Shown: positions 37,597-51,632 of the stretch, piece by piece | Layout: each line of letters begins with the position of its first letter | Position numbering within the stretch: position 1 is the first letter of the stretch | Made by a program: the position numbers and the translations under genes | The notes under the pieces: generated by a model | The model's database searches: none | Told to the model about the DNA's origin: nothing | What the model saw: the letters and a program-made list of their open reading frames with translations, nothing else | DNA from: Hyphomicrobiales bacterium | GTDB taxonomy: Bacteria; Pseudomonadota; Alphaproteobacteria; Rhizobiales; Rhizobiaceae | Length of the DNA stretch: 64,000 nt | Direction of reading: 5' to 3' | NCBI GenBank assembly: GCA_900466575.1 | Contig: UBMP01000020.1 | Coordinates: 248,001-312,000 of the forward strand

Positions 37597-38099
37597 GTGA
37601 ACGGTGGCGTCCAGTCGCCCAGCGATCTCCGCCGTGCTCATCTTCACCAATCGCCAGCGGTCTGACGTCTGCCGGCAAGGGTGAGGTGGCTGTATCGGGT
37701 CTTCATTCAGGATGTCCTTTCGCTCTTCAACATCCTGCCACACTTCAAAAGTCGCAGTTCGGTATACCGCGCACCCACGCAACTAACTAAGTCTGATAAT
37801 ACATCTTATGGAACATAGTGTGCACAGATTCGCGACGCGCATTTCGCAATGATGGTCCTGACTTCTCACTGTCAGCCCCGCAATTTCGCCTATGGACTGG
37901 ACGTCAGAGAAGAATCGTGGCCTATCTGATAGCTGTGTCTTTAGGCACGAGCAGGATGAAGGTGCATCAAGCCCATGACTGGGTCCGGGAGAAAATCTGG
38001 CAAAATCGCGACGACCGTTCATCTGGAACCGGCCGCGCAAGGCCGTATGCATTTTCGCCATCCATTTGGCATCGCCGAACGAACAGTGCGGGTTTCGCC
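37597..38099. other. Region upstream of repB without repA
   Basis: About 500 bases between the SDR terminator and repB 1. The repB frame is open upstream to 37818, but that part resembles no partition protein. No RepA C-terminal motif and no clear ribosome site were seen, and short minus-strand frames are unconvincing. Confidence 0.5.
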
Positions 38100-39074
38100 A
38101 TGAGCCGTCGAAAGCTCGCGGGTTCGGCTTTCACCCTTGTCCCGAACTCGGACTCTGAGGTGAAGGACACGACCAAGCCGAAGAAGGCTGTGGCGGTTGA
38201 GTCAGCGTCTGACGCCCAGCCGGGTCTGTCCGAACTGGTCAAGCTGGACCCTTCGCTGATTGAAGCCTCTCCGTTCGCGGATCGACTGGCGGATGAGGAC
38301 CACGAGCGCTTCGCCGGCTTCGTGAAAAGCATAGCGGATCATGGCCAGCAAGTGCCCATTCGGGTTCGCCCGCATCCACAAAAAAATGGCCTTTACCAAG
38401 TCGTCTATGGCCATCGACGGCTGGCCGCCCTAAGGCAATTGAACCTGCCCGTCACGGCTCATATCGTGGACATCAACGATCGCGATCTGGCCGTTGCGCA
38501 AGGCATCGAGAATAGTGCCCGGCAGGATCTTTCCTGGATTGAACGGGCCCTCTTCGCTCGGCGAATGGATGACGCCCATTTTCGCCCTCGCGACATCTAT
38601 ACCGCACTTTCGATTGATGACGCTGAACTTGCTCGTATGCGGGGTGTGTGCCGGCAGGTACCCATCGATATTATCGAGGCAATTGGACGGGCACCAAAGA
38701 TCGGACGACCCAGATGGGTCGCGCTGGCGAAATCCTTTGCAAAAAATACAAATGCAGTTCAAAACATTCGCGAAATGCTGCAGTCCGAGCGGATTCGCAA
38801 GATGGCTTCAGATGCCCGCTTTTCGTGGGTACATGAATTGATTGCTGAATCCCGGGCGTTGGGGACGGGCAACTTGCCGCTACGTGAGACCGATGGGTTT
38901 GGTCTCGGCGAGATTCGATATACGAGTAAAGAGTTGCGTATTGTAGCAGCCAATGAACGTGGGCAAGCATTTGCCGACTTTGTTCGAGCTGAATTGCCGA
39001 GACTGATCGAAGAATTCAGCGCGCTGGATATCGTGACACCGAAGACTCTGTCATCTGACAGGAACGATACATAA
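38100..39074 (+). CDS. repB: Plasmid partitioning protein RepB (locus 1)
   Basis: 324 residues from ATG 38100 (MSRRKLAGSAFTLVPNS). ParB-fold signatures: VPIRVRPHPQKNGLYQVVYGHRRLAALRQL and ENSARQDLSWIERALFARRM, followed by a helix-turn-helix region around RDIYTALSIDDAELARMRGVCR. It binds centromere-like parS sites. It is followed by an antisense-RNA locus and repC, as in repABC plasmids, but no repA precedes it. It is clearly diverged from RepB 2 at 49362, despite equal length. Confidence 0.9.
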   Translation: MSRRKLAGSAFTLVPNSDSEVKDTTKPKKAVAVESASDAQPGLSELVKLDPSLIEASPFADRLADEDHERFAGFVKSIADHGQQVPIRVRPHPQKNGLYQVVYGHRRLAALRQLNLPVTAHIVDINDRDLAVAQGIENSARQDLSWIERALFARRMDDAHFRPRDIYTALSIDDAELARMRGVCRQVPIDIIEAIGRAPKIGRPRWVALAKSFAKNTNAVQNIREMLQSERIRKMASDARFSWVHELIAESRALGTGNLPLRETDGFGLGEIRYTSKELRIVAANERGQAFADFVRAELPRLIEEFSALDIVTPKTLSSDRNDT

Positions 39075-39132
39075 GACCAGATCTGCCGATCTTGGTCACA
39101 GACGAAAATACCGAAAGGAATTCAATCCGGTA

Positions 39133-39192
39133 AAAGAAAAGCTCCCAGAACGTCGCCGTCGTGGAAGCCTCTCTCTAAGTGTCGCAGCTTGA
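39133..39192 (-). ncRNA. repABC-type antisense RNA (ctRNA/incA), copy 1
   Basis: In the repB-repC gap, minus strand. A TTGACT -35-like box lies at 39220-39215. The transcript would end at a hairpin (GCTTCCA pairing with TGGGAGC around a GACG-x4-CGTT inner stem) followed by a U-rich run at 39140-39131. Its core 39151-39190 differs by one base in 40 from the copy at 50355-50394. In repABC plasmids this RNA represses repC and determines incompatibility. Confidence 0.72.
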
Positions 39193-39278
39193 GAATCGCA
39201 TTTCCCCGAATCACAGTCAAGAGTTTTTGGCGCCATTCATGGCGGGTGGCTTCTTTTACCTTGTGGAGAGGTAGAAAG

Positions 39279-40595
39279 ATGATCACGGGAAATGTGACGA
39301 CGCCCTTTGGGCGGCGGCCGATGACCTATGGCATGCTGGTAGATCAGCTTGCCATCCAGGACATCGACCAAAATGCATCTGTTGATAAATGGAAGCTCTA
39401 TCGCTGGCTTTGCGAGGCAAGGCCACGACTAGGCATTTCAGACCGGGCACTTTCCCTTCTGAATGCGCTGCTGAGCTTTTATCCGAAGTCAGAGTTGGTA
39501 GGCTCTGACAGCCTCATCGTATTTCCCTCAAATGCACAACTCTCTCTCAGAGCTCATGGGATGGCGGAGGCCACGATCCGCCGGCATATCGCAGCGCTGG
39601 TCGAAGCTGGTTTGCTCATCCGTCGGGACAGCGCCAATGGAAAGCGTTTCGCCAGACGCGATAGTGAGGGCGATCTCGGGCAGGCTTTTGGCTTTTCCCT
39701 GGCCCCTCTCCTTCAGCGCGCGGCGGAAATCGAAAGCTTGGCCGCCTCAGTCGTCGCAGAGCGGATCCATTACCAGGGACTGAAAGAGAGGCTGACGATC
39801 TGCCGACGCGATATCGTCAAATTGCTTCAGACGGCAATAGAGGAAAACGGAGGAGAGGAAGATGGCGACCTTGCCCACATGTCCGCTCTCTACAGGGACG
39901 TGGTGTCAAGGCTTCCTCGCCAGCCCGAGGCATTCGAACTCGATGCAATCCTTATTGTTCTCGACGCTCTCCGCGAAAACCTTGTCAAGTTGCTGACCGA
40001 ATGGTGTAAATCTGAGAAAAAGAACGGCAATGACGCTCAGTTTGAGCGCCACATACAGAATTCAAATACAAACGCTCAATATGAACTTGAACCTCGCTTT
40101 GAAAAAAAGCAGGGGCAAGGTCGCGATCCCGATAATGGAACTCCGCAGTCAGGTGCGGACACAGGCAGCTCTGTCCGGAGAGACCTAGGCCACATTCCGC
40201 AGCGGCCTGACACCTACCCGGGCTCGGGGCCGTCCGGCGATATTGTCATGAAGCCCTTCCCGCTCGGGATGGTGTTGTCCGCCTGCCCGGAAATACGCAA
40301 CTACGGGCCAGGCGGTGCGATCGGGACCTGGAGAGATTTCTTAGGGGCGGCGGTGATTGTAAGATCCATGCTCGGCGTGTCCCCGAGCGCCTTCGAGGAG
40401 GCATGTGCCGTGATGGGGCCTGAAAACGCGGCGACCGCGATTGCCTGCATCTTGGAACGCGCAGGTCATGTCAATTCCGCTGGCGGCTATCTGCGTGATC
40501 TGACGCGGCGGGCCGAGCGCGGCGAGTTTTCGCTGGGTCCGATGCTCATGGCGCAGTTGAGGGCGAATGGCGAGATTGGGGTGAAGCGGGCGTAA
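39279..40595 (+). CDS. repC: Replication initiator RepC
   Basis: 438 residues from ATG 39279 (GGAGAGG upstream). The start MITGNVTTPFGRRPMTYGML is the canonical RepC N-terminus; RWLCEARPRLGISDRALSLLNALLSFYPKSEL and HGMAEATIRRHIAALVEAGLLIRRDSANGKRFARRD are the conserved initiator domain; the C-terminal SPSAFEEACAVMGPENAATAIACILERA...AGGYLRDLTRRAERGEFSLGPM is also intact. Length is normal, so it looks functional. It binds the origin expected inside its own coding sequence. Its partner repA is 8 kb away beside another repB. Confidence 0.95.
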   Translation: MITGNVTTPFGRRPMTYGMLVDQLAIQDIDQNASVDKWKLYRWLCEARPRLGISDRALSLLNALLSFYPKSELVGSDSLIVFPSNAQLSLRAHGMAEATIRRHIAALVEAGLLIRRDSANGKRFARRDSEGDLGQAFGFSLAPLLQRAAEIESLAASVVAERIHYQGLKERLTICRRDIVKLLQTAIEENGGEEDGDLAHMSALYRDVVSRLPRQPEAFELDAILIVLDALRENLVKLLTEWCKSEKKNGNDAQFERHIQNSNTNAQYELEPRFEKKQGQGRDPDNGTPQSGADTGSSVRRDLGHIPQRPDTYPGSGPSGDIVMKPFPLGMVLSACPEIRNYGPGGAIGTWRDFLGAAVIVRSMLGVSPSAFEEACAVMGPENAATAIACILERAGHVNSAGGYLRDLTRRAERGEFSLGPMLMAQLRANGEIGVKRA

Positions 40596-40596
40596 G

Positions 40597-40621
40597 AAGC
40601 CGCGATCGAGGACCGCGGCTT
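40597..40621. terminator. Hairpin between repC and the convergent hydrolase gene
   Basis: Eight-base inverted repeat AAGCCGCG / CGCGGCTT with a nine-base loop, immediately after the repC stop. Only a short T stretch; a modest bidirectional terminator. Confidence 0.45.
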
Positions 40622-40655
40622 TGCAAGATCGAGATTCTTCTCGAGCGTGGAAGTG

Positions 40656-41507
40656 TCAGGCAATGACTCGCTGCGTTTGAACACCAAGGCGTTCGATCCC
40701 GAGCGACATGACTTCGCCGCCCTTGAGGAATTTCGGCGGCTTCTGACCCATCCCGACGCCGGGGGGCGTTCCTGTCGAGATGACATCACCAGGTTGGAGG
40801 CTCATGAAGCGGCTCAGATAGGAAATCAGGAAGGGGACTTTGTAGACCATCGTTTTCGTGGAGCCGTCCTGATAGCGGTGGCCGTCTACATCGAGCCACA
40901 TCTTGAGATCATCGAAGTCGCCGACTTCATCGGGGGTGACCAGCCAAGGTCCAAGGGGACCGAACGTGTCGCACCCCTTCCCCTTGTCCCAGGTCCCTGC
41001 CCGCTCCAGCTGATATTCGCGTTCCGATACATCGTTGATGAGGCAGAAGCCGGCTACATGCGAAAGGGCGTCCGCCTCCTCGATATAGCTGCCGCCTTTG
41101 CCGATCACGACACCCAGTTCGACTTCCCAATCCGTCTTGACCGATCCGCGCGGAATGCGGACGTCGTCATCGGGACCAATAATTGCAGAAGTCCACTTGT
41201 TGAAAACAACCGGTTCTGGCGGAACAGCGGCGCCGGTCTCGGCTGCGTGGTCGGCATAGTTCAGGCCAATGCAGATGAACTTGCCAACCTGCCCGACGCA
41301 AGGACCGACGCGAACTTCCTTCTGTGGCGTGCCGGCGACCTTAGGAAGTGAACTGACATCAAGCGACTTCAGGCGATCCAAGTTGTCAGGCAGGAGCGAC
41401 GATCCGGCAAGGTCGGGTATGACAGCTGACAGGTCACGAATGCAGCCGTCGTCATCCAACAAGCCCGGCTTCTCTTGCCCTGAGGGGCCATAGCGCAGCA
41501 ACTTCAT
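40656..41507 (-). CDS. Fumarylacetoacetate hydrolase family protein (2,4-diketo-3-deoxy-L-fuconate hydrolase-like)
   Basis: 283 residues. FAH-fold signatures: GKFICIGLNYADHAAETGA, VFNKWTSAIIGPDD, the metal-binding DWEVELGVVIGK, FCLINDVSEREYQLERAGTWDKGKGCDTFGPLGPWLVTPDEV and ISTGTPPGVG. This subfamily often occurs in L-fucose clusters, where it cleaves 2,4-diketo-3-deoxy-L-fuconate to pyruvate and L-lactate. Here it keeps company, across a decayed gap, with an SDR, a UxaA-type dehydratase and fucU, which supports that reading; the exact substrate is inferred. Confidence 0.85.
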   Translation of the reverse strand: MKLLRYGPSGQEKPGLLDDDGCIRDLSAVIPDLAGSSLLPDNLDRLKSLDVSSLPKVAGTPQKEVRVGPCVGQVGKFICIGLNYADHAAETGAAVPPEPVVFNKWTSAIIGPDDDVRIPRGSVKTDWEVELGVVIGKGGSYIEEADALSHVAGFCLINDVSEREYQLERAGTWDKGKGCDTFGPLGPWLVTPDEVGDFDDLKMWLDVDGHRYQDGSTKTMVYKVPFLISYLSRFMSLQPGDVISTGTPPGVGMGQKPPKFLKGGEVMSLGIERLGVQTQRVIA

Positions 41508-43277
41508 TTCATCATTCTCCTGTTTCCAGCGAATAGGCCGGGTCGGGTCTGGTTAACTTCGATCACTTGGTTCTGGACGGGCCGGTCAATCGTCAAGCCG
41601 GCCGACTACATCGTGGGACTGCTGACGTTGGGTTTATCCTATCGGTAAATGCGGTGTCGATATGCTTCTGAAGCGTTTGTCCCCTCGGGTAGCAAGAGGG
41701 TTTTTACGCGGTTGATCCGGTGACTGTATATTTCGGCTTCTTGTGTTCCTCCCAGGCTGCTGGAGCCCAGCTGTCGTTTCGCTTAAGCCGGTGCCGGCCA
41801 CCCCATCTATTGTGCCCCTTTACCGATAAGACGGCAGTAACAATTTCATGATGAACAGGCCCATGATGATTTTGAGACTGCTACCGCTTCACTCCGGCGA
41901 CCTGCTGTGGCGGTGATCAGGTCGGCCGGGGCAGGTGCAGTGTTTATCTACGGTAGGGAGCTGGTCGCGCGGACTGCGCCAGGGGATATTCGGCGTCCAG
42001 AGTCTGCACCAGTCGTTCGATTGCGACAACCATTCAGAGGTTATCGATATCTACGCGCGAGAGTCACGCGGCACATGGATCGGGCTTCTATAAGTTCGGG
42101 GCGAAGAGCTAGCGCACTGGCTTAGTAGCACGAAGATGAAGATACTGATGGGGAACGAAGGACCGCGACTCTGCGCAGCATCAGATCTCTAGTGCGGGCC
42201 CTGGGAGATGATGGAAAAGAATGCGTCGAAATGTTTCGTTCCTGAAATCGACATCGAGAGAGTTCTTTGAGCGGGTATCTCATCTGTGACCGCGGAGGCC
42301 TGGATTTTCCTTATTTGGAATGATGGTCTTTGTGTCGCCGGAAAACGTCAGCATAATGCCAAATGGCATCGAGAGTTCTCCCATATTTCATGGATGCGCG
42401 AACTGTTTATCCTGGGGAGATCGGGGAGGCTTGATCCCCGGCGATTTCACCGGTTTTAACGACCGCACCGTCACCGGCAATTGTTGAAGTTGCTCGCATG
42501 GAAAGTGTGGGATCTTCTTGGCATTCATAACACTCCCTACGACCATGCCGAAGCCTTGACCTCTGGCTGATGAGCATGACTCAATTGTCAGCAGCTTCTT
42601 CTGGGGAGGGTCGGTCGTGGTTCCCCTGCCCTCTCCTCTGCGTTTTGTCTCGCCCTAAGTCTTCACGTTCGGCTGAGCGCTGCGGGCAAGTTTTCGATCC
42701 TTCAGCTCCGTCCCATGCCGGCGTCCGGCCAGCCGCCATTGGAAGATAGCGGTTTTCATCAGGCTCCCGCGGTCTAGAAGCTGATAGCCCAGGTTCCCAG
42801 GTGTGATGAAATAAGCCTCCTGCCAGACGTTCTTGGCGACTATTCTGTCGAACTTTCATATATTTGCTTTGGCAACATCATAGGGGACTTAAGCAAGGAC
42901 GCGCGCTAGTTTTGCGCACATCCAGGCGGTGCCGGGCAGATGTCCCTACGGCCTTTGGCTGTCCACGAACCCTCCCGATGACGAGGAAGGCGGACGGAAT
43001 GGTTTGCGCATTCCCGGCCGGATGGCCCGAGCAGAAATTTGGTGCGCAAGTTCAGTGACGCGACGCAGCAGATCAGGGCAGCAAGCCCGGGGATCGATCA
43101 CTTTCCCTGCAAGATAGTCGACAGCGACGTAAAGTCTCTCGCTACGTCGGGCGAATGTGCTCAGCGCCCAGGAACAGGGCTCACTTCAGCGTTGGCTGTG
43201 AACCCTCCTTCTGATCCCGTCAGGCGATGAATGTTCTTCATTCTGCAATGCTCACAAGCCAAGTCGGCGTTGCGAGG
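41508..43277. other. Decayed region without intact genes
   Basis: About 1.8 kb inside the fucose-type cluster. Short frames only. On the minus strand around 43150-42946 a start-less open frame reads ...LYVAVDYLAGKVIDPRA...DLLRRVTELAHQI..., which looks like a gene remnant I cannot name. A ten-base inverted repeat (TATCGGTAAA 41640-41649, TTTACCGATA 41819-41828) flanks about 170 bases. An intact version of such a cluster would be expected to carry a lactonase or transporter here. Confidence 0.55.
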
Positions 43278-44027
43278 CTAGATGGTAACGCCACCATCCA
43301 CCAACATGGCCTGCCCGCTGACGAAGCGGCTTTCTGGTGAAAGAAGATAGATCACCATCGGCGTGATGTCGTCAACAGTTGCCAAACGCCCCATGGGCTG
43401 GCGCGCAATGAAGTCCTTCTCGGCCTGTATCGGGTCTGCAGAGGCCGCAATGCGCCCTCTCAGCGACGGTGTATCGACCGTTCCCGGGCAAATCGCATTA
43501 CAGCGGATCCCCTGCTTTACGAAATCGGCAGCGATGGATTTCGTCAGGCCGATAACCGCGGCTTTGGACGCTCCATAAGATGCCCGGTTGGCGAAACCCT
43601 TGATGGATGATGCCATGGACGCCATGTTCAGCAATGAGGCCGTTCCGGTCTCCCCTGCCCGCACGAGCATGCCCGGCAAGAAAGCACGGCACATCCGCAT
43701 CATGGCGGTGACGTTGAGGTCAAACGCAAAGGTCCAGTCGGAGTCGGCGATATCCAGGACCGTTCCGTTGTGAACCACGCCGGCACAATTGAACAACCCG
43801 TCGAGTTTCGGCAATTTTGCTGCCAGAGCGTCTATTTCATCCTGTTTCATAACATCAAGGCGCGACGTCCTAATGCTTGAATTCTCTGCAGAAAGTGAGG
43901 CTAAGGCCTCACTATTGATATCTGTCGCGTAGACGGTGGCGCCTTCCGTAGCGGCAGCCAGCGCCGATGCCCGACCTATCCCCTGCCCCGCAGCAGTTAT
44001 GAGTATATTCAGGCCCTTAAGACGCAT
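43278..44027 (-). CDS. SDR dehydrogenase (2-keto-3-deoxy-L-fuconate dehydrogenase-like)
   Basis: 249 residues. TAAGQGIGRA cofactor motif, FNCAGVVHNGTVLD, catalytic YGASK, CPGTVDTPSL and the C-terminal FVSGQAMLVDGGVTI. The unusual TAAGQGIGRA and NCAGVVHNG strings match the DHRS6/BDH2-type SDRs that include bacterial 2-keto-3-deoxy-L-fuconate 4-dehydrogenases. The dehydratase gene is 69 bases upstream on the same strand. Role in the pathway inferred from context. Confidence 0.86.
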   Translation of the reverse strand: MRLKGLNILITAAGQGIGRASALAAATEGATVYATDINSEALASLSAENSSIRTSRLDVMKQDEIDALAAKLPKLDGLFNCAGVVHNGTVLDIADSDWTFAFDLNVTAMMRMCRAFLPGMLVRAGETGTASLLNMASMASSIKGFANRASYGASKAAVIGLTKSIAADFVKQGIRCNAICPGTVDTPSLRGRIAASADPIQAEKDFIARQPMGRLATVDDITPMVIYLLSPESRFVSGQAMLVDGGVTI

Positions 44028-44080
44028 AGTTAAACCTTCACACGAGCTGTACTTAAGCTAGTGCATCAAATTAAAGTAAT

Positions 44081-44094
44081 CTCTCACGTGAGAG
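44081..44094. promoter_or_regulatory. 14-bp perfect palindrome between dehydratase and SDR genes
   Basis: CTCTCACGTGAGAG, directly after the dehydratase stop and 54 bases upstream of the SDR start. It could be an operator or a short termination structure; it is unlike the palindrome near the GntR gene. Confidence 0.4.
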
Positions 44095-44096
44095 TG

Positions 44097-45620
44097 TTAC
44101 ATTACGGCACCAATTTGCCAGGGAACGAACTCCGCTCCTCCAAAGCCTAGTTCTTCGCTCTTAGTCCGCTCACCCGATGCGACTCGGATAATCAGCTCGA
44201 AAAGTTCCGTGCCCTTCTCCTCGATGCTCACGCCTTCGGTGACTATATCGCCACAGTTGAGATCCATATCTTCGGACAACTTTGCGTACATTTCGGAGTT
44301 GGTGGCGAGCTTGATGCATGGCGTCGGTTTGTAGCCCGAGACCGAACCTCGACCTGTGGTGAAGACGATCAGGTTGGCGCCGGAGGCGACCTGGCCTGTC
44401 ACGGAGCAGGGATCGAAACCCGGACTATCCATGAAGACAAAACCCTTTGTGTCGATTTTCTCACCGAATTTGTAAACACCGCTAAGGGGCGCCGTACCCC
44501 CCTTGGCGACAGCACCAAGCGACTTTTCGAGAATCGTTGTGAGACCGCCGCGCTTGTTGCCGGGCGACGGATTATTGTCCATCTCTCCGCCATTGCGGGC
44601 TGTGTAATCCTCCCACCAGCGAATGCGCTCAACAAGCTTTTCACCGACCTCGATCGTCTCCGCACGGCGCGTCAGCAGGTGCTCTGCGCCGTAGATTTCG
44701 GAGGTTTCAGACAGGATTGTGGTGCCGCCATGGCGCACCAGCAGGTCGGAAGCATGGCCGAGCGCAGGGTTGGCCGTAATGCCCGAATAGCCATCAGAAC
44801 CGCCGCATTGCAGCCCTATTGTGATTTCAGAAACAGAAATAGGCTCACGGACGGCCTTGTTCGCGTGCTCTGCGACGCCTCTGAGGGCCTCCAGGCCGCG
44901 TTCAATGGTGCGGCGTGTTCCACCCTCCTGCTGGATCGTCATGTACTGCAGGGCGCCGTCTGCGCGGATTTTACGCCCTCCCACGAGCTCCGGGATCTGC
45001 ATGACTTCGCAGCCGAGGCCGAGCAGCAGAATGCCGCCAAAGTTGGGGTTCTGGGCATAACCAGACAGGGTCCGGAAGAGCGTTGCATAGCCTTCGCCCT
45101 CCCCGGACATGCCGCATCCGGTCGAATGAACGATCGGAACGATGCCGTCGATGTTCGCGTACTGGTTGAGGAAACCCGCCTTCTCTGCTGCTTCAGCAAT
45201 GAATTTTGCGACCGAGCCGGAACAGTTTACCGTGGTCAGAATGCCGATGTAATTGCGCGTGCCTGCCTTGCCGTCGGCTCGGCGGTAACCCTGAAAGGTG
45301 CGAAGTTGATCGGCCGGAGCGAGCGGCTCGTTCTGCGTCGCGTGGCCGTAATCCTGGTGGTGCTCGCCCATACCGAGATTATGAACGTGCACATGTTCGC
45401 CGGCGTGAATGTCTGCCTTCGCCTGACCGATGATCTGTCCGTATCGATAAACGTTTCCGCCCGCCGGAATGTGACGGGTCGCTACTTTATGGCCGCGCGG
45501 AACTGCAAGCTTGAGGGGCATGGAAATCTCGTCGAGGCGTTCGCCCGCGGCCAGATCGCGCAAGGCGATGACCACGTTGTCATTTGAATGCAGACGAATC
45601 AATTTAGCGCCTCGGTCCAT
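44097..45620 (-). CDS. UxaA-family sugar-acid dehydratase (altronate/fuconate type)
   Basis: 507 residues. N-terminal SAF-like domain (KLIRLHSNDNVVIALRDLAAGERLD...HIPAGGNVYRYGQIIG...HVHNLGM, about 5-88), then the UxaA catalytic domain with RADGKAGTRNYIGILTTVNCSGSVAKFI, HSTGCGMSGEGEG, GLQCGGSDGYSGITANPALG and DNNPSPGNKRGGLTTILEKSLGAVAKGG. Fe-dependent dehydration of an aldonate to a 2-keto-3-deoxy acid. With fucU and the SDR nearby, L-fuconate is the likeliest substrate, but altronate cannot be excluded. Divergent from the GntR regulator. Confidence 0.88.
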   Translation of the reverse strand: MDRGAKLIRLHSNDNVVIALRDLAAGERLDEISMPLKLAVPRGHKVATRHIPAGGNVYRYGQIIGQAKADIHAGEHVHVHNLGMGEHHQDYGHATQNEPLAPADQLRTFQGYRRADGKAGTRNYIGILTTVNCSGSVAKFIAEAAEKAGFLNQYANIDGIVPIVHSTGCGMSGEGEGYATLFRTLSGYAQNPNFGGILLLGLGCEVMQIPELVGGRKIRADGALQYMTIQQEGGTRRTIERGLEALRGVAEHANKAVREPISVSEITIGLQCGGSDGYSGITANPALGHASDLLVRHGGTTILSETSEIYGAEHLLTRRAETIEVGEKLVERIRWWEDYTARNGGEMDNNPSPGNKRGGLTTILEKSLGAVAKGGTAPLSGVYKFGEKIDTKGFVFMDSPGFDPCSVTGQVASGANLIVFTTGRGSVSGYKPTPCIKLATNSEMYAKLSEDMDLNCGDIVTEGVSIEEKGTELFELIIRVASGERTKSEELGFGGAEFVPWQIGAVM

Positions 45621-45723
45621 TCCTGTACATCCTCCCCCGTTAATTCTTGGTTTTTTGGGCCTCTGGCGCCAACTATTATCAGGTGTTAAATAGTGTTCTA
45701 TCTTGACTAGTACGCAATGTCAA

Positions 45724-45735
45724 CTAACATGTTAG
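45724..45735. promoter_or_regulatory. Palindrome CTAACATGTTAG, candidate GntR operator
   Basis: Perfect 12-bp palindrome in the 141-base divergent space between the dehydratase and the FadR-type regulator, 27 bases before the regulator start. Its size and position suit an operator of a dimeric GntR protein. Confidence 0.5.
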
Positions 45736-45761
45736 ACATTCATTGAGGGGATTCGTTAAGT

Positions 45762-46478
45762 ATGACGCAGGCTTTGAACGCGCGAGCATTGACCGCAATT
45801 GACGATTTGCCGGGGTCGCTGGCGCAGCGCGTGTATCAATCGTTGCAGGAAGCGATCATGTCGCTGACGTTTCCCCCGGGCAGCTTAATCCGAAAGGGCG
45901 CCATCTGCGATGAACTCGGTGTATCGCGGTCGCCCGTCTCGGAAGCGATTACACGGTTGGCATCTGAGGGTCTTGTCGATGTAATCCCGCAAAGTGGCAC
46001 GCGCGTGGCGCGCTTCTCGATCGAGGAAATCCGGGAGGCCGCCTTTATGCGCGAAGCATTGGAAGTGGCCGCAGTGGAAAAGGTCGCGCGCACGCATACG
46101 GCCGACCAATATGCCAAACTGGCTCGCAATGTTCGGTTGCAGGCCATGCTGGTGGAGGACCACGACACGGCCGGCTTTTATCAGGCCGACGAGGAGTTTC
46201 ATGCCCTTCTGATGGAGTTCACGGGATTCCCCGGCGTGGCGGCCACTGTGGCCACGATTGCGTTGAAGCTGAAGCGACCGAGAATGCTTCTGCTTCCCGA
46301 AGCTGGCCGCAATGACGACGCGGTGCGCGAGCATCTGGCGATTGTCGAGGCTATTCGGGATCGTAATCCCGATGAGGCGCGCTCCGCTATGCGCTACCAC
46401 CTTGCGCAACTGGTCAGCCGTTTCGATCCGCTGGAGCAGGAGCATCCGGAGTTTTTCCGCTCCAGGCAGTCCCATTGA
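45762..46478 (+). CDS. GntR/FadR-family transcriptional regulator
   Basis: 238 residues. N-terminal winged helix (SLAQRVYQSLQEAIMSLTFPPGSLIRKGAICDELGVSRSPVSEAITRLASEGLVDVIPQSGTRV) and a C-terminal FCD ligand domain with the metal-binding pattern Asp...EEFHALL...REHLAIVEAI...MRYHLAQL. FCD regulators usually sense an organic acid. It is divergent from the dehydratase, so it most likely represses this catabolic cluster. Confidence 0.92.
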   Translation: MTQALNARALTAIDDLPGSLAQRVYQSLQEAIMSLTFPPGSLIRKGAICDELGVSRSPVSEAITRLASEGLVDVIPQSGTRVARFSIEEIREAAFMREALEVAAVEKVARTHTADQYAKLARNVRLQAMLVEDHDTAGFYQADEEFHALLMEFTGFPGVAATVATIALKLKRPRMLLLPEAGRNDDAVREHLAIVEAIRDRNPDEARSAMRYHLAQLVSRFDPLEQEHPEFFRSRQSH

Positions 46479-46990
46479 AACTCCCCTCGCCTGCGGACCA
46501 GTTTCCTGTACGCGTGACTGAGTAATTTCTGCTGACCGGGCGAAAAAGTCTTTCTGATCACCACCCGCGTTTGGGGTGGCGGTGCTCTGTTGCGTGGTCT
46601 GTATAGACGGCGGGGATAGAGAGGCTTGGGACGCGCTCCGCTTGGGCTTATCGAGTAGCTGTTATATTCCCGCGTCGCTGTACATCTGGGCGGTGCGAAG
46701 AGCGCGTTGGTCGGGTCGTTGGTGACCTGAATCCGGCACCTGTGATTCCCGACCAGGGCAACCGGGCGCATCCGGGATTGTGAGCGGAATCAGGTGATGC
46801 GGATTTGTGGAGCGAGCAAGACGCGCCGGGAAGCTGATGATCAAGCTACTCTGCTTGACCGTGAAGTCTGTGCGCTCTCGCGAAACTCGAATCGTGCCTG
46901 GGAATCGTGGGCGCCAACTATTCAACTGAAGTCGAGATAGCGCGCTGGGCGACCGATTTGGCGTCGGCGATATATTGAGGCTAGGTGCCG
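46479..46990. other. Region with probable decayed start of the aldo-keto reductase
   Basis: About 500 bases with no credible intact frame between the regulator and the recognisable part of the reductase pseudogene. A short plus-strand segment near 46680-46730 faintly recalls an aldo-keto reductase N-terminus (LGGAKSALVGSL), too weak to annotate. Confidence 0.4.
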
Positions 46991-47472
46991 GGCACAAGAG
47001 CTGCGAGGCTGCGAAAGGCTTCTTGGTATCGGTTGCTTCACTGTTTTGTACCCGCCGCCACTAGCACATGCGGGAAGCAGGTGGCGCCCTACTCTTCTCT
47101 CTCTGGGGTGAAGGTCGCCGCGCTTTCCATCATCCTGGGCGAGCCCTGCAGTTCGGCGATTCTCGGGACCGCAACGATCCGGTGCGCGCGCTGTATTGCC
47201 CCCTACCCCTTCGGAGGTTCTGAAGCGGTTTGCATGGATCGAATCAGTGCGTAGACCTCACATCGTTTCCCTGGCCGCCGCAACGCTGCAATGCCTGTTG
47301 GGCACTTGGGTGTGAGGACCGCGCTCGTCGCGCGGTGATTCGCATGAAATTGATGGCCGCCGCGAGACTCTTGCAAGTGGAAATCCCTGCGGGCCTCTGG
47401 ACGGACGTGAAGCGAGAGGGTCATATCCCCGCCGACGTATCTATTCCCGAGGAGAGCAGAGATGCTTCGTAA
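46991..47472 (+). pseudogene. Frameshifted aldo-keto reductase (L-fucose dehydrogenase-like) remnant
   Basis: Three successive reading-frame pieces match the C-terminal half of L-fucose/D-threo-aldose 1-dehydrogenases: GVKVAALSIILGEPCSSAILG (about 47110-47175), then PSEVLKRFAWIESVRR and SLAAATLQCLLG (47208-47310), then VEIPAGLWTDVKREGHIP (about 47380-47435). Frame changes and a premature stop separate them, and no N-terminal half is clear. The remnant ends overlapping fucU, the usual order in L-fucose operons. An intact enzyme would oxidise L-fucose to the lactone. Confidence 0.72.
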
Positions 47473-47890
47473 CATCCCACCGATTCTTTCGCCTGATCTT
47501 CTCCACGCCTTGGCTGCGATGGGCCATGGAGACGACATCGTGATTGCTGATGCCAATTTTCCAGCCGAAAGCTCCGGCGTGCCATGCATCCGCCTCGACG
47601 GCATCTCTGCAACCGAGGCGCTGGAGGCGATTCTGTCGCTCCTCCCGCTTGATAGCTTTGTGCCGGATCCTGCGCTGGTGATGCAGGTCGTTGGCGATCC
47701 AGACGCTGTTCCGGAGGTCGTCGGCGAGTTCCAGTCCATCATCGATCGGGTCGCTGATAACCCGGCTAAGATTCAGAGCCTGGAGCGGTTTGCATTTTAT
47801 GATCGCGCTAGCGATGCCTTTGCCGTCGTCCAAACTGGAGAGCGGCGGCTCTATGGAAACATTATCCTCAAGAAGGGCGTCATCAAGTAA
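47462..47890 (+). CDS. fucU: L-fucose mutarotase FucU (RbsD/FucU family)
   Basis: 142 residues, ATG 47462 with GAGGAGAG upstream. MLRNIPPILSPDLLHALAAMGHGDDIVIADANFP, IRLDGISATEALEAILSLLPLD and the end ERFAFYDRASDAFAVVQTGERRLYGNIILKKGVI are diagnostic of FucU, which interconverts the anomers of L-fucose. Catalytic His in MGHGD and Tyr in LYGNI are present. It lies right after the reductase pseudogene and still looks intact. Confidence 0.93.
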   Translation: MLRNIPPILSPDLLHALAAMGHGDDIVIADANFPAESSGVPCIRLDGISATEALEAILSLLPLDSFVPDPALVMQVVGDPDAVPEVVGEFQSIIDRVADNPAKIQSLERFAFYDRASDAFAVVQTGERRLYGNIILKKGVIK

Positions 47891-47901
47891 CTGATGACGC
47901 C
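47876..47901 (+). terminator. Hairpin containing the fucU stop codon
   Basis: Perfect ten-base stem GGCGTCATCA / TGATGACGCC with loop AGTAAC, in which the TAA stop lies. No T-run follows. Confidence 0.5.
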
Positions 47902-48030
47902 GACCGGTTTCGGCGAGGCGGCGTGCCTCTCTCGAGCGAGCGATGCTTAGCAGGCTCAGGAAACGGCCCGGCGGCGGGCTGTTTCCATTCGTTAACCCTG
48001 TTGCCTTGCGCAATCTTACGAATCTGCGAT

Positions 48031-48071
48031 AATAACGATTATTCAAACTGCCTCGCCCGAAAATCGTTATT
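48031..48071. promoter_or_regulatory. Inverted repeat upstream of repA, probable RepA operator
   Basis: AATAACGATT at 48031-48040 is exactly inverted as AATCGTTATT at 48062-48071, 15 bases before the repA start. RepA proteins autorepress through sites in this position; the match to a specific operator is inferred. Confidence 0.55.
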
Positions 48072-48086
48072 TGGAATTCAGACTCG

Positions 48087-49298
48087 ATGAACGCCGTCAC
48101 CTCAGCCGCGACAAGCCGCGAAGCCTTTCACTTTGAGGACGAGATTCTCGAACAGGGCGACCTGATTTCGAAGAAGCTGCATCTGCTCAGCCTTCAGCGA
48201 TTCCCGCCGACGGCGCACAAGACGCTCCGCACATTTTCGCTGGCCGAGGTAGCACATTTTCTGGGTGTCTCACAGAGCACGCTGAAGAAGCTTCATCTGG
48301 AGGGCAAGGGTCCTCTGCCCCAGACGTCTCCCTCCGGTCGACGCTCCTATTCGGCGCAGCAGATGGCGGAACTGCGCGACTATCTCAGCCAACATGGCCG
48401 TGCCGACGTGAAGGATTACTCGCCGCGTCGCCGTCCGGCCGATAGACTACAGGTGATCGCGGTCGTCAATTTTAAAGGCGGATCGGCGAAGACAACGACT
48501 GCAGCGCACCTGGCGCAGCATCTTGCGCTCACCGGGCATCGCGTGCTTGCTATTGACCTGGATCCGCAGGCCTCGCTCACCTCGCTGCATGGGTTCCAGC
48601 CGGAGCTGGACCAAACGCAGTCGCTCTACGAGGCGCTCCGTTATGATGAAGAGCGGAAGCCGATCAGGGACGTGATCCGACAGACCAACTTCCCCGGCCT
48701 CGACATCGTGCCTGCCAATCTCGAACTGCAGGAATTCGAATACGACACGCCGCTCGCCATGGCGAACCGAAACTCGAATGAAGGCAAGACCTTCTTCACG
48801 CGCATTTCGCGCGCTCTCGCCGAAGTGGATGATCAATACGACGTGGTGGTGATCGATTGCCCGCCTCAGCTGGGTTATCTGACGATTACGGCCCTTGTTG
48901 CGGCCACGAGCGTGCTGATTACCATTCACCCGCAGATGCTGGACGTCATGTCCATGGGGCAGTTCCTGCTCATGCTGGGTGGTATTCTGAAGCCGATCCG
49001 ACAGGCGGGCGCCGAGGTAAACCTCTCCTGGTATCGCTACCTCGTGACGCGCTATGAGCCGACCGATGGGCCCCAAGCGCAGATGGTTGGATTCATGCAG
49101 ACCCTGTTCAACGAGTTCATGCTGAAGAACCAGATGCTGAAATCGACGGCCATTTCCGACGCGGGCATCACAAAGCAGACGCTGTACGAAGTCGAGCGGA
49201 CCCAGATGACGCGCACGACGTACGATCGGGCGATGGAGGCTCTCGAAGCTGTGAACGCTGAAATTACCGAGCTGGTTCACGCGGCATGGGGCCGGTGA
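48087..49298 (+). CDS. repA: Plasmid partitioning ATPase RepA
   Basis: 403 residues. N-terminal helix-turn-helix (RTFSLAEVAHFLGVSQSTLKKLHLEGKGPLPQTSPSGRRSYSAQQMAELR, 48-97), deviant Walker A KGGSAKTT at 130-137, Walker B region YDVVVIDCPPQLG and the C-terminal ISDAGITKQTLYEVERTQMTRTTYDRAMEALEAVNAEITELVHAAWGR typical of RepA. ParA-type ATPase for segregation and autorepressor of the operon. repB follows 63 bases later, but no repC follows. Confidence 0.96.
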   Translation: MNAVTSAATSREAFHFEDEILEQGDLISKKLHLLSLQRFPPTAHKTLRTFSLAEVAHFLGVSQSTLKKLHLEGKGPLPQTSPSGRRSYSAQQMAELRDYLSQHGRADVKDYSPRRRPADRLQVIAVVNFKGGSAKTTTAAHLAQHLALTGHRVLAIDLDPQASLTSLHGFQPELDQTQSLYEALRYDEERKPIRDVIRQTNFPGLDIVPANLELQEFEYDTPLAMANRNSNEGKTFFTRISRALAEVDDQYDVVVIDCPPQLGYLTITALVAATSVLITIHPQMLDVMSMGQFLLMLGGILKPIRQAGAEVNLSWYRYLVTRYEPTDGPQAQMVGFMQTLFNEFMLKNQMLKSTAISDAGITKQTLYEVERTQMTRTTYDRAMEALEAVNAEITELVHAAWGR

Positions 49299-49299
49299 A

Positions 49300-49315
49300 G
49301 TTGTCGGCTGACAAA
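49300..49315. other. Candidate parS centromere site between repA and repB
   Basis: GTTGTCGGCTGACAAA matches the repABC parS pattern GTTnnCnGCnGnnAAC in all fixed positions but the last, with arms TTGTC/GACAA. It is in the repA-repB gap, a known location for parS. Confidence 0.5.
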
Positions 49316-49361
49316 AATGGGGAAATATTGAATATTTCCAGTGGTATAGGGGTGACAAAAA

Positions 49362-50336
49362 ATGGCGCGCAAGAATCTTCTTGCTGGATTGGCTGATTCC
49401 GAGGAAGCAGCGCCCGCTTCCGCTGCTGCATATCCCATGCGCGGCGCCTCCAAGACCATGATTCGGTCTCTGGACGAATTGGCGCGGCAAGCGGACAAGT
49501 TCCTTGAGGGTGAAGCAGTCATCGATATCGAACCCTCTGAGATTGACGGTTCCTTCGTCTCCGATCGGTTGGAAGATGATGCGGAGCAGTTCGAGGCGCT
49601 AAAAGCGGCAATTGCGGAACGCGGTCAGGATTCACCTGTGCTGCTGCGGCCCCATCCAGACCGAGCGGGACGCTATCAGATTGTCTTCGGCCATCGGCGT
49701 GTCCGTGCCGCGCGTGAACTGGGTCGCCCCGTTCGTGCGGTCGTCAAGGCAATCGACGATCGTTCCCATGTCATCGCGCAGGGTCAGGAAAACTCGGCCC
49801 GTGCCAACTTGAGCTTCATCGAGCGCGCACTGTTTGCCAAGCGTCTCGAAGACCTCGGCTATGGCCGGGACGTCATCGGCTCTGCATTGGCAGCCAATGC
49901 AGCAGCGCTGTCGAAGATGGTTTCAGTGACCTCGCGGATTAGCGAAGACGTCCTGTCTGCGATTGGACCGGCGCGCGGCGTAGGTCGTGAACGGTGGGTT
50001 GAGCTGTCATTGTTAGCCGGCAAGGAATCGAATGCAGATCGGATCGATGACATCGTTTCCGACCCGTCGTTCAGGGCTCAGTCGAGCGACGAGCGCTTTA
50101 ATGGTCTCTATCTCGCTCTCAAGCAGGGCGGCAAGCCGGTCAAGAAGAGCAAGCCGGCGGCGAAGCTCGAGGGGTGGCAGGCAAAGGACAAGCTTGTCGC
50201 TGCGCAGTTCTCTCAAGGTGCCCAGGCGTTTTCACTGACCTTGAAGGCGAAGGCAGCGCCGGAGTTCGGCCGTTTCATCGCGGACAATCTGGACCGGCTC
50301 TATTCGGAATATGTGTCAGGGAAACGGGGCCGGTAA
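49362..50336 (+). CDS. repB: Plasmid partitioning protein RepB (locus 2)
   Basis: 324 residues. N-terminal MARKNLLAGLADSEEAAPASAAAYPMRGASKTMIRSLDELARQ is the usual RepB interaction region; ParB core SPVLLRPHPDRAGRYQIVFGHRRVRAARELGR and ENSARANLSFIERALFAKRLEDLGYGRDVIGSALAANAAALSKMVSV; C-terminal RepB domain to the end. It binds parS and works with the RepA encoded upstream. It is followed by an antisense-RNA locus and a terminator-like hairpin, then no repC. Confidence 0.95.
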   Translation: MARKNLLAGLADSEEAAPASAAAYPMRGASKTMIRSLDELARQADKFLEGEAVIDIEPSEIDGSFVSDRLEDDAEQFEALKAAIAERGQDSPVLLRPHPDRAGRYQIVFGHRRVRAARELGRPVRAVVKAIDDRSHVIAQGQENSARANLSFIERALFAKRLEDLGYGRDVIGSALAANAAALSKMVSVTSRISEDVLSAIGPARGVGRERWVELSLLAGKESNADRIDDIVSDPSFRAQSSDERFNGLYLALKQGGKPVKKSKPAAKLEGWQAKDKLVAAQFSQGAQAFSLTLKAKAAPEFGRFIADNLDRLYSEYVSGKRGR

Positions 50337-50396
50337 AAAAGAAAGGCCCCCAGACGTCGCCGTCGTGGAAGCCCCTCTCTAAGTGTCGCAGCTTAT
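50336..50396 (-). ncRNA. repABC-type antisense RNA (ctRNA/incA), copy 2
   Basis: Minus strand, downstream of repB. TTGACG -35-like box at 50424-50419; the RNA would end in a hairpin (GGCTTCCA with TGGGGGCC and inner GACG/CGTC) and a U-rich run at 50344-50335. The core 50355-50394 is nearly identical to copy 1. There is no repC here to regulate. Confidence 0.72.
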
Positions 50397-50425
50397 GGGT
50401 CGCACGTCCTCGAATGGCCGTCAAG

Positions 50426-50462
50426 AGTCCGCATCGGTTTTCATGCCGATGCGGACTATTTT
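50426..50462 (+). terminator. Attenuator/terminator hairpin in place of repC leader
   Basis: Perfect 12-bp stem AGTCCGCATCGG / CCGATGCGGACT with loop TTTTCATG, followed by ATTTTTTG. In repABC loci a hairpin here attenuates transcription into repC when the antisense RNA binds. Here it ends the repAB transcript. Confidence 0.8.
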
Positions 50463-51632
50463 TTGTGCCTGAGTGCCGCTAGCCGCCGCGACATTGCCGG
50501 AACTCGGCGCTCTTGTTCCTGCAACTGGTCGAGAAGTGACCGGCCGGGGAAGGGCGGGCGTTAGGGTGGTCTTTGCTTCAGGCATGGACTATTGGGTGCC
50601 CGGCATTTACCCCGGACGCACGCGCCTTGAACTAGACGCGTGTTTCGCAAGGCGAAATGGTGAATGATTTCTTGATGGCGGAAAGCGCTTCCTTCGGCCC
50701 AGTTAGGCGACTGATGAGCAATAGGGCTCGCCGTCGATCTGTTCCGGCTTAGGTCTTTCGGTTCTCAGCGCGCTGCTGGCGCGCGAGGGCAGGGCGGAAT
50801 GGGGTGCGGGCGTGAGCTTGCCTCCGTCTCCTTGACCCGGAGCAAGGTTAGAAGAGGCCTCTGTATGAGCGGACCCACCCTCGGTTCGGGTCTCGGCTCG
50901 TTCTCTCACCATCGCTTCATTGCCTGCAGGGCGAGGCCGGCTGCAGTGGGGCGAGGACCGGCAAACGTCTGGCCGGTTATGGCCAACTCATCATTTTCCC
51001 TCTGATGTTGTCCATAGAGGTGAATGGGGGGCTGCCAGCGTCGTCGCCGAAGGCGGGCGTTGACGATCCACCTTCAGGCATTGGTGCGGCCTTCATCTAG
51101 GCTTGATTCTAGAGGTTCCAAGACACGCTCGGAGGAGGGGCTTCTCGTGAAGAGTCAGTCGGCTGGGCGCTGAAAGGCTGGTGAGCCCGTTGGTGTGTGA
51201 TTGCCTGGAAGGGGCGGCTCCGGGCTGGACGCTCCATTCAACGCCAAAAAGTGCGGGTGCGGGGCGGAATTTCACGTGCAGTAGAGCGCCTGCAGCGTTT
51301 TAGTTGGCTTGCATGCCCGGCTGGTGCTGATTTTTCACATCCGGGAAGCGGAATTCAATCCTCATCAAACGTATGGCGTCGTCCGACAAACGAAAGTTAT
51401 TGTCTATTTGATTTTGCTTTAGGCTTTTTCGGTTTTAGTCTCATAAGGGTAGTCCGCATGTTCATATCGGGCGGCCGCGGAAACGCGAGAGTAGAGCAGC
51501 ATCGATTTGGCCCTGTACCGAGAAAACTTCAGCAGGGCGGGGCACGCGAGATTGACGCACGTGCGACCTCTCCCGAACGGTCACGATCGTGAGGCTCCGG
51601 TGGCGATGAGGCTTGGCGGATCCCCGGTTCGC
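50463..51632. other. Non-coding stretch where repC would be expected
   Basis: About 1.2 kb with no recognisable gene. No trace of the RepC N-terminal motif (TPFGRRPM) or other RepC segments was seen on the plus strand. Short frames lack ribosome sites and families. Confidence 0.55.

Follow-up and report, generated by a model that had tools for sequence, protein, structure and literature searches.

The 64,000-nucleotide window analysed here, from a Hyphomicrobiales bacterium (assembly GCA_900466575.1, contig UBMP01000020.1, positions 248,001 to 312,000), carries the genes of a repABC-type replicon in two separate units. Unit 1 (repB1-ctRNA1-repC, 38100-40595) lacks a repA, unit 2 (repA-repB2-ctRNA2, 48087-50378) lacks a repC, and 7.5 kb lie between them; ctRNA denotes the counter-transcribed antisense RNA of such systems. 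The two units probably constitute a working replicon module, derived from two repABC operons that were reduced to complementary parts. Unit 1 would replicate the replicon, a former repA promoter driving repB1 and then repC behind ctRNA1 and the leader known as the S-element. Unit 2 would segregate it, with RepA and RepB2 acting at a parS2-like site and the usual repA operator in control; its transcription would halt at a strong terminator rather than enter repC.

The order repB1-repC-[FAH-SDR-UxaA-GntR-FucU]-repA-repB2, in the same orientation, is found in five of the six genomes of the genus: in the window, which is part of contig C28 (398,414 bases) in a 44-contig assembly of a 5.14 Mb genome, and on G001:C2, G002:C45, G003:C16 and G005:C10. 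The layout described in the initial annotation is real and is no peculiarity of one strain. The split order was not found in the sixth genome, G004, where the assembly breaks at some rep genes. There, a pRM41A-type repA-repB on C6 and another repA-repB on C4 are both cut by contig ends, while a contiguous repABC operon lies on C9. Among the G004 contigs C4, C5 and C6, two end soon after repB and the third is cut inside repC, so that the assembly of this genome interrupts repABC operons. In a survey of 394 genomes of the family, drawn evenly from a larger group and scored for RepB1 on at most five candidates per genome, RepB1 of at least 79% identity and the unit 2 RNA element occur only in the same five genomes (0 of 388 outside the genus), and the next-best RepB1 match is that of G004:C6 (52%). 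Three of the five also came up by name when GTDB contigs were scanned (Rhizobium sp. C4, Rhizobium sp. C1 and Rhizobiales bacterium AFS022961), along with three distant matches of 29-32%.

The layout is old, and all four Rep proteins are under purifying selection. Among the five genomes, identity is 94.5-97.0% for RepA, 85.8-95.7% for RepB2, 74.6-79.9% for RepC and 75.8-82.1% for RepB1, with near-saturated synonymous differences of 0.45-0.76 per site. The ratio of non-synonymous to synonymous change (dN/dS) is 0.016-0.032 for RepA, 0.03-0.06 for RepB2, 0.09-0.15 for RepC and 0.07-0.11 for RepB1, the last from the eight of ten pairs that are unsaturated. The relatives compared throughout this analysis were chosen among the top matches and not at random.

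The source genome holds three RepC, three RepA and four RepB proteins above the family cut-offs. Contiguous repABC operons lie on C7 and C17, and C28 carries the split genes only. Searches for the repABC families found no other repABC on C28 (398 kb) or on G001:C2 (580 kb), nor do the ends of the latter contig overlap. Neither a repA or repC adjoining the incomplete halves nor a second repABC on the contig, either of which the initial annotation took as fatal to its proposal, has turned up. Together, the split order in five of six genomes, the purifying selection and the absence of another repABC on these two contigs argue for a working module. So do the lineage-typical parS-like site of each unit, the unit 1 promoter island with its likeness to the repA promoter of the RepB1 lineage, the predicted pairing of the ctRNA1 arm with the unit 2 target, and the terminator, with an abrupt end of conservation, after unit 2.

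As to family membership, RepA, both RepB proteins and RepC exceed the cut-offs of TIGR03453, TIGR03454 and NF040974. The single operon of the family is absent, as five other genes and 7.5 kb separate repC from repA. A ctRNA lies between repB and repC in unit 1, and unit 2 has a ctRNA core without repC. The missing neighbours left no convincing remnants: 27 RepA queries, run against as much as 3 kb before repB1 in the five genomes, found no repA (best E 0.031; the G005 contig provides just 327 bases there), and 39 RepC queries found no repC within 3.5 kb downstream of repB2 (best E 0.009). Profile matches and remnant searches thus bear out the description of the halves as lacking an adjacent repA and repC, respectively. 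In G003, a reverse-strand stretch about 0.7-1.0 kb past repB2 is weakly matched by five RepC queries (best E 0.009).

Unit 1 is preceded by a promoter island that lies 174-192 bases upstream of the repB1 start in the five genomes and keeps 37 of 60 columns invariant amid diverged flanks. In operons of the RepB1 lineage, the sequence that aligns with it immediately precedes repA. For seven of eight lineage members the alignment score is matched by at most 10 of 300 shuffles, as against 70-287 of 300 in eight other operons; the non-significant member is pRM41A (42 of 300), whose sequence is cut at the record end. The resemblance suggests that a repA was lost between this promoter and repB1. Further downstream, the ctRNA1 promoter region is invariant in 31 of 32 columns. 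In plasmid p42d, replication is by RepC, with the origin within repC, and repC is the reported requirement (PMC3155836). By analogy, oriV of the present replicon may lie inside repC, and unit 1 would possess this requirement plus antisense control.

The 3' end of repB1 contains a parS1-like palindrome, about 70 bases from ctRNA1. Its pattern, CTGTCANNTGACAG, is present without mismatch in four of the five split genomes and with one in G005. In the RepB1 lineage it is exact in five of nine loci and has a two-mismatch form in three; Shinella has none at the threshold used. The palindrome lies at or near the repB 3' end in seven of the nine (four exact, three two-mismatch), and in pRM41A it lies downstream of repC. 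There are two exact parS1-like sites in the genome, both on C28. The second (C28:150821-150834) is 136 kb off, inside a 332-amino-acid open frame resembling an ABC ATPase. Elsewhere in the window, two one-mismatch matches, at 852 and 1164, lie at a great distance from the units.

As for unit 2, inverted repeats akin to those of its repA operator also precede repA in pNGR234a, p42f, R. daejeonense, ACO-34A and Ciceribacter. The parS2-like site in the repA-repB2 gap differs at one position from the published repABC consensus. The same 16-mer occupies the repA-repB gap of R. daejeonense and ACO-34A, is one base off in Ciceribacter and p42f, and is absent from that gap in pSinB and pNGR234a. It has a single exact copy in the genome; a one-mismatch copy, TTTGTCGGCTGACAAA, which is the p42f form, lies on C38 (107039-107054). 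The exact published parS consensus has no match in the window, the candidate sites of both units being near matches, and one exact-consensus site stands before repB1 in G001 only. Judged from its sequence, unit 2 would have what a repAB partition unit needs: lineage-like operator repeats, repA, a parS-like site and repB. The terminator hairpin is invariant in 37 of 42 columns, and over the next 200 bases only 8 of 269 aligned columns are; position 50462, where the initial annotation ended the locus, falls in the T tail. With a promoter island before unit 1 and an operator and a terminator bounding unit 2, initiator and partition functions are likely to be expressed from separate transcripts, as had been suggested.

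The two RepB proteins, each of 324 residues, have different ancestries. Those of the window are 35-41% identical to the opposite kind in related genomes. RepB1 clusters with the RepB of pRM41A, Shinella, CB3090, CB3060 and Afipia, and RepB2 with that of pNGR234a, pSinB, Ciceribacter and R. daejeonense; the grouping was rechecked on starred sets of ten rows each. A recent duplication of RepB, which the initial annotation already disfavoured, is therefore rejected. In the closest repA-repB2 relatives inspected (Ciceribacter, R. daejeonense, pSinB and ACO-34A), the repABC operon is contiguous and of the ordinary kind. RepC belongs to neither parental lineage. In a tree without Afipia and G004:C3, it clusters with plasmids of the genus and Hoeflea (support 99/98) and less firmly with p42b (94/96.7). 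Clade tests gave p values of 2e-49 against its joining the RepC of the RepB1 lineage and 8e-4 against its joining pNGR234a, pSinB and p42f, values that are overstated because the tests force together rows that lie apart in the best tree and the groups were named once a first tree had been seen. The proposed composite of two repABC operons, less one repA and one repC, thus gains from the RepB lineages and the unit 1 promoter, but RepC calls for a third source or a repC replacement.

An antisense-RNA locus had been assigned to each half. This holds for unit 1 but is only half true of unit 2, where an invariant RNA core is combined with an antisense -10 box that is altered in each of the five genomes. 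The 58 columns of the ctRNA2 core are all invariant (56 of 58 in ctRNA1), whereas identity at the third codon positions of repB2 is 50.8% on average, and no S-element match is found at unit 2. The pattern TTGAC-N16-19-GATTCT occurs in 34 of 40 ctRNA genes; this is our own description of those genes and not a curated criterion, and the unit 2 copy departs from it. The exceptions are Ciceribacter and the five unit 2 copies, in which the -10 GATTCT, intact in 34 of the 35 other genes, reads GACCCA or CACCCA.

The 5' end of the ctRNA determines incompatibility. The arms of ctRNA1 and ctRNA2 are identical at 17 of 18 bases, while either arm matches any further lineage at no more than 13 of 18 bases and the two other replicons of the genome at 6-9 of 18. 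Predicted pairing energies in the five genomes are -30.1 to -38.9 kcal/mol within and between ctRNA1 and ctRNA2, as against -8.9 to -23.1 kcal/mol with one to three other ctRNAs per genome. In the window genome, the ctRNA1 arm pairs at -37.3 kcal/mol with its own target, at -36.8 with that of unit 2 and at -10.8 and -10.1 with those of the other two replicons. Since the ctRNA2 core carries the ctRNA1 recognition arm, RNA made from either strand should affect repC control in trans, and would tie unit 2 to unit 1.

Several points weigh against the module as we read it. The shared arm is not unique, as 17-18 of 18 bases agree in 14 of 496 ctRNA pairs, mostly of close relatives but also in G002:C16 and R. 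daejeonense, so that the match could reflect shared ancestry or recombination and need have no function. The 496 pairs come from a set without CB3090, Afipia and CB3060, which gave no ctRNA core, and without G001:C3, G005:C41 and G002:C49. In its 3' half, ctRNA2 is unlike ctRNA1 and does not track it. The predicted sense-strand fold at unit 2 is no better than that of shuffled sequences (z -0.96; 30 of 200 as good). RepB1 may be served by RepA in trans. Finally, the search covered repABC families alone, and an initiator of an unrelated family could sit on the replicon.

What ctRNA2 does may be explained in two ways. It is possible, though we put it forward tentatively, that the repA-repB2 mRNA has at its 3' end a copy of the ctRNA target, which absorbs ctRNA1, so that more partition mRNA would mean less repression of repC. 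The loss of the -10 box beside an invariant core, the terminator, which turns the core into a short 3' untranslated region, and the shared arm all point this way. For GTCGCA, the complement of the ctRNA tail, sense-strand predictions in all five genomes moreover give a largely unpaired state (0.80-1.00 per base). A tail unique to these loci was rejected, GCGACAC being found also in the pAtS4b group; it is the 18-base arm alone that sets the two ctRNAs apart. The unremarkable sense fold speaks against a decoy, as does the stretch opposite the ctRNA 3' half, which is invariant yet unlike ctRNA1. Three of the ten consensus leader pairs are broken in the unit 2 copies, but the working leaders of p42b and S. 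alkalisoli likewise keep just seven of ten. With such a fold and these broken pairs, a conserved sense fold at unit 2 finds no support.

The other explanation, held with like reserve, is that ctRNA2 is still transcribed from the changed promoter and represses repC in trans beside ctRNA1. Its core and hairpin are invariant like the working ctRNAs of the C17-type operons in the same five genomes, and only 7 of 200 shuffled sequences fold as well as its minus strand (z -2.1). The -35 TTGACG is retained, and predicted cross-pairing with the unit 1 target reaches -30.1 to -36.8 kcal/mol. Against a second antisense RNA stands the -10 box, altered in all five genomes; a simple promoter scan is blank there, although the same scan also misses the ctRNA1 promoter. 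Loss of the -10 box speaks for the decoy and invariance of the hairpin for the antisense RNA, while folding leaves the choice undecided.

RepB1 differs from its relatives at its N-terminus. It matches the TIGR03454 profile only from position 62, and a segment present in 40 of 40 other RepB proteins (at least 16 of 23 columns filled) is missing in all five (4-8 filled). The ParB core and the first residues, MSRRKLAGS, are retained. An AlphaFold model of the protein had a pLDDT of 47.9 and was not used. In the discussion of PMC9040568, a parS beside the ctRNA gene is proposed to serve RepB-dependent control of ctRNA transcription. Devoid of a cognate RepA and of the N-terminal segment, RepB1 would most likely control expression of repC or ctRNA1 at the parS1-like site, rather than segregation. 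One can also imagine that RepB1 and this site form a second centromere served by RepA in trans, giving two segregation sites about 10 kb apart. The ParB core, the lineage-typical site and the conserved first residues are compatible with this. We nevertheless consider it unlikely, for among 45 RepB proteins the N-terminal segment is missing from the five RepB1 and from no others, and RepA and RepB2 share most of their best plasmid matches, an indication that RepB2 is the partner of RepA. A broader proposal is that the coupling of partition and replication has moved from cis to trans, the end of the repA-repB2 mRNA titrating ctRNA1 and so setting RepC, with RepB1 as a repC regulator at its parS-like site; this we find somewhat doubtful.

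It is highly improbable that the locus is the relict of a cointegrate, with parts of two operons in decay. Partial operons beside complete ones are indeed on record (PMC2783167, PMC8554961), but the dN/dS values of all four genes contradict decay, the RNA core is invariant in five diverged genomes and neither C28 nor G001:C2 holds another repABC. An assembly artefact fusing two replicons, conceivable in a draft of 44 contigs, can be dismissed, as the identical order recurs in four other assemblies, one of just six contigs.

Table 1. Features of the two rep units and of the region between them (window coordinates).
Feature	Coordinates	Strand	Remarks
Unit 1 promoter island	37889..37948	+	CTGGAC at 37897-37902; AATCGTGGCCTATCTGATAG at 37913-37932
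repB1	38100..39074	+	Orphan RepB, 324 aa; TIGR03454, 285.6 bits (cut-off 201.5)
parS1-like palindrome CTGTCATCTGACAG	39048..39061		Inside repB1 3' end
ctRNA1, antisense RNA of repC	39130..39174	-	RF00489 (ctRNA_p42d), 54.3 bits (gathering score 50)
ctRNA1 promoter	39192..39220	-	TTGACT-N17-GATTCT
S-element, repC leader	39215..39281	+	RF00490, 46.5 bits, slightly below gathering score 47
repC, initiator	39279..40595	+	438 aa; NF040974, 517.7 bits (cut-off 150)
Intervening genes	40656..47890		Pfam: FAH-family hydrolase (-), SDR (-), altronate/galactarate dehydratase (-), GntR regulator (+), FucU/RbsD (+)
repA operator/promoter region	48028..48072	+	Inverted repeats AATAACGATT, AATCGTTATT; conserved in five genomes
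repA, partition ATPase	48087..49298	+	403 aa; TIGR03453, 612.8 bits (cut-off 348.45)
parS2-like site GTTGTCGGCTGACAAA	49300..49315		repA-repB2 gap; invariant in five genomes
Second palindrome GGAAATATTGAATATTTCC	49321..49339		repA-repB2 gap, beside parS2-like site; arms conserved in five genomes, centre variable
repB2, RepB adjoining repA	49362..50336	+	324 aa; TIGR03454, 351.5 bits
ctRNA2 core, 58 bases	50341..50398		RF00489 match 50333-50378 (-), 56.2 bits (threshold 50)
Altered antisense promoter	50396..50424	-	-35 TTGACG retained; -10 GATTCT changed to GACCCA
Intrinsic terminator	50426..50465	+	13-pair stem (50426-50457) and T tail, where S-element/repC would come

Between the units lie sugar-acid genes; there, the FAH-SDR gap (41508-43277) measures about 1.8 kb in the window and G001 and about 3.7 kb in G002, G003 and G005. 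In G005 it holds a sugar ABC transporter (binding protein, permease and ATPase), and tblastn found no remnant of these three proteins in the gap of the window or G001. The stretch 46770-47457 is the remnant of a degraded aldo/keto reductase gene, of which G005 has an open copy; G001 matches that of G005 (346 amino acids, 81%).

The locus shares with repABC operons of the p42d, pNGR234a, pRM41A and p42b types the protein families, the ctRNA, the S-element, parS-like sites and the repA operator. Unlike them, it comprises two units, has RepB twice and ends in a second ctRNA core and a terminator instead of repC. An initiator unit without adjacent repA is also found in repC-family replicons, which have repC and a ctRNA but no repAB (as described in PMC10194956). 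Here, in contrast, a conserved repB1 with a parS-like site and a repA-type promoter directly precedes repC, and no other repABC-type initiator was found on the contig.

There are precedents for incomplete repABC operons and for composite replicons (PMC2783167, PMC8554961, PMC5613091). Six faulty operons (five repAB, one repAC), four of them coexisting with a complete operon, are reported in PMC2783167, and pTiAB2/73, of cointegrate origin, has one truncated repABC beside a complete operon (PMC8554961). As in these cases, each operon of the present locus lacks one rep gene; unlike them, it consists of two complementary halves that are conserved across the genus, and its contig holds no complete copy. 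Plasmid pAMI4 has remote parS repeats, parts of its repABC system being 11.5 kb apart, and a parS beside its ctRNA gene is discussed as regulatory (PMC9040568). Its operon is intact, however, whereas the split described here affects the operon itself. Among the papers listed in searches of open-licence literature, none was seen to describe a conserved division into two complementary units in which an orphan RepB and a ctRNA core lacking repC are under selection.

The repABC replicons are the standard example of an operon that keeps replication and partition genes together. Any lineage in which the two functions are unlinked would offer a natural test of what this linkage serves. Likewise, the orphan RepB would test the role of RepB beyond segregation, and the repC-less ctRNA core whether a second locus can tune antisense control of replication.

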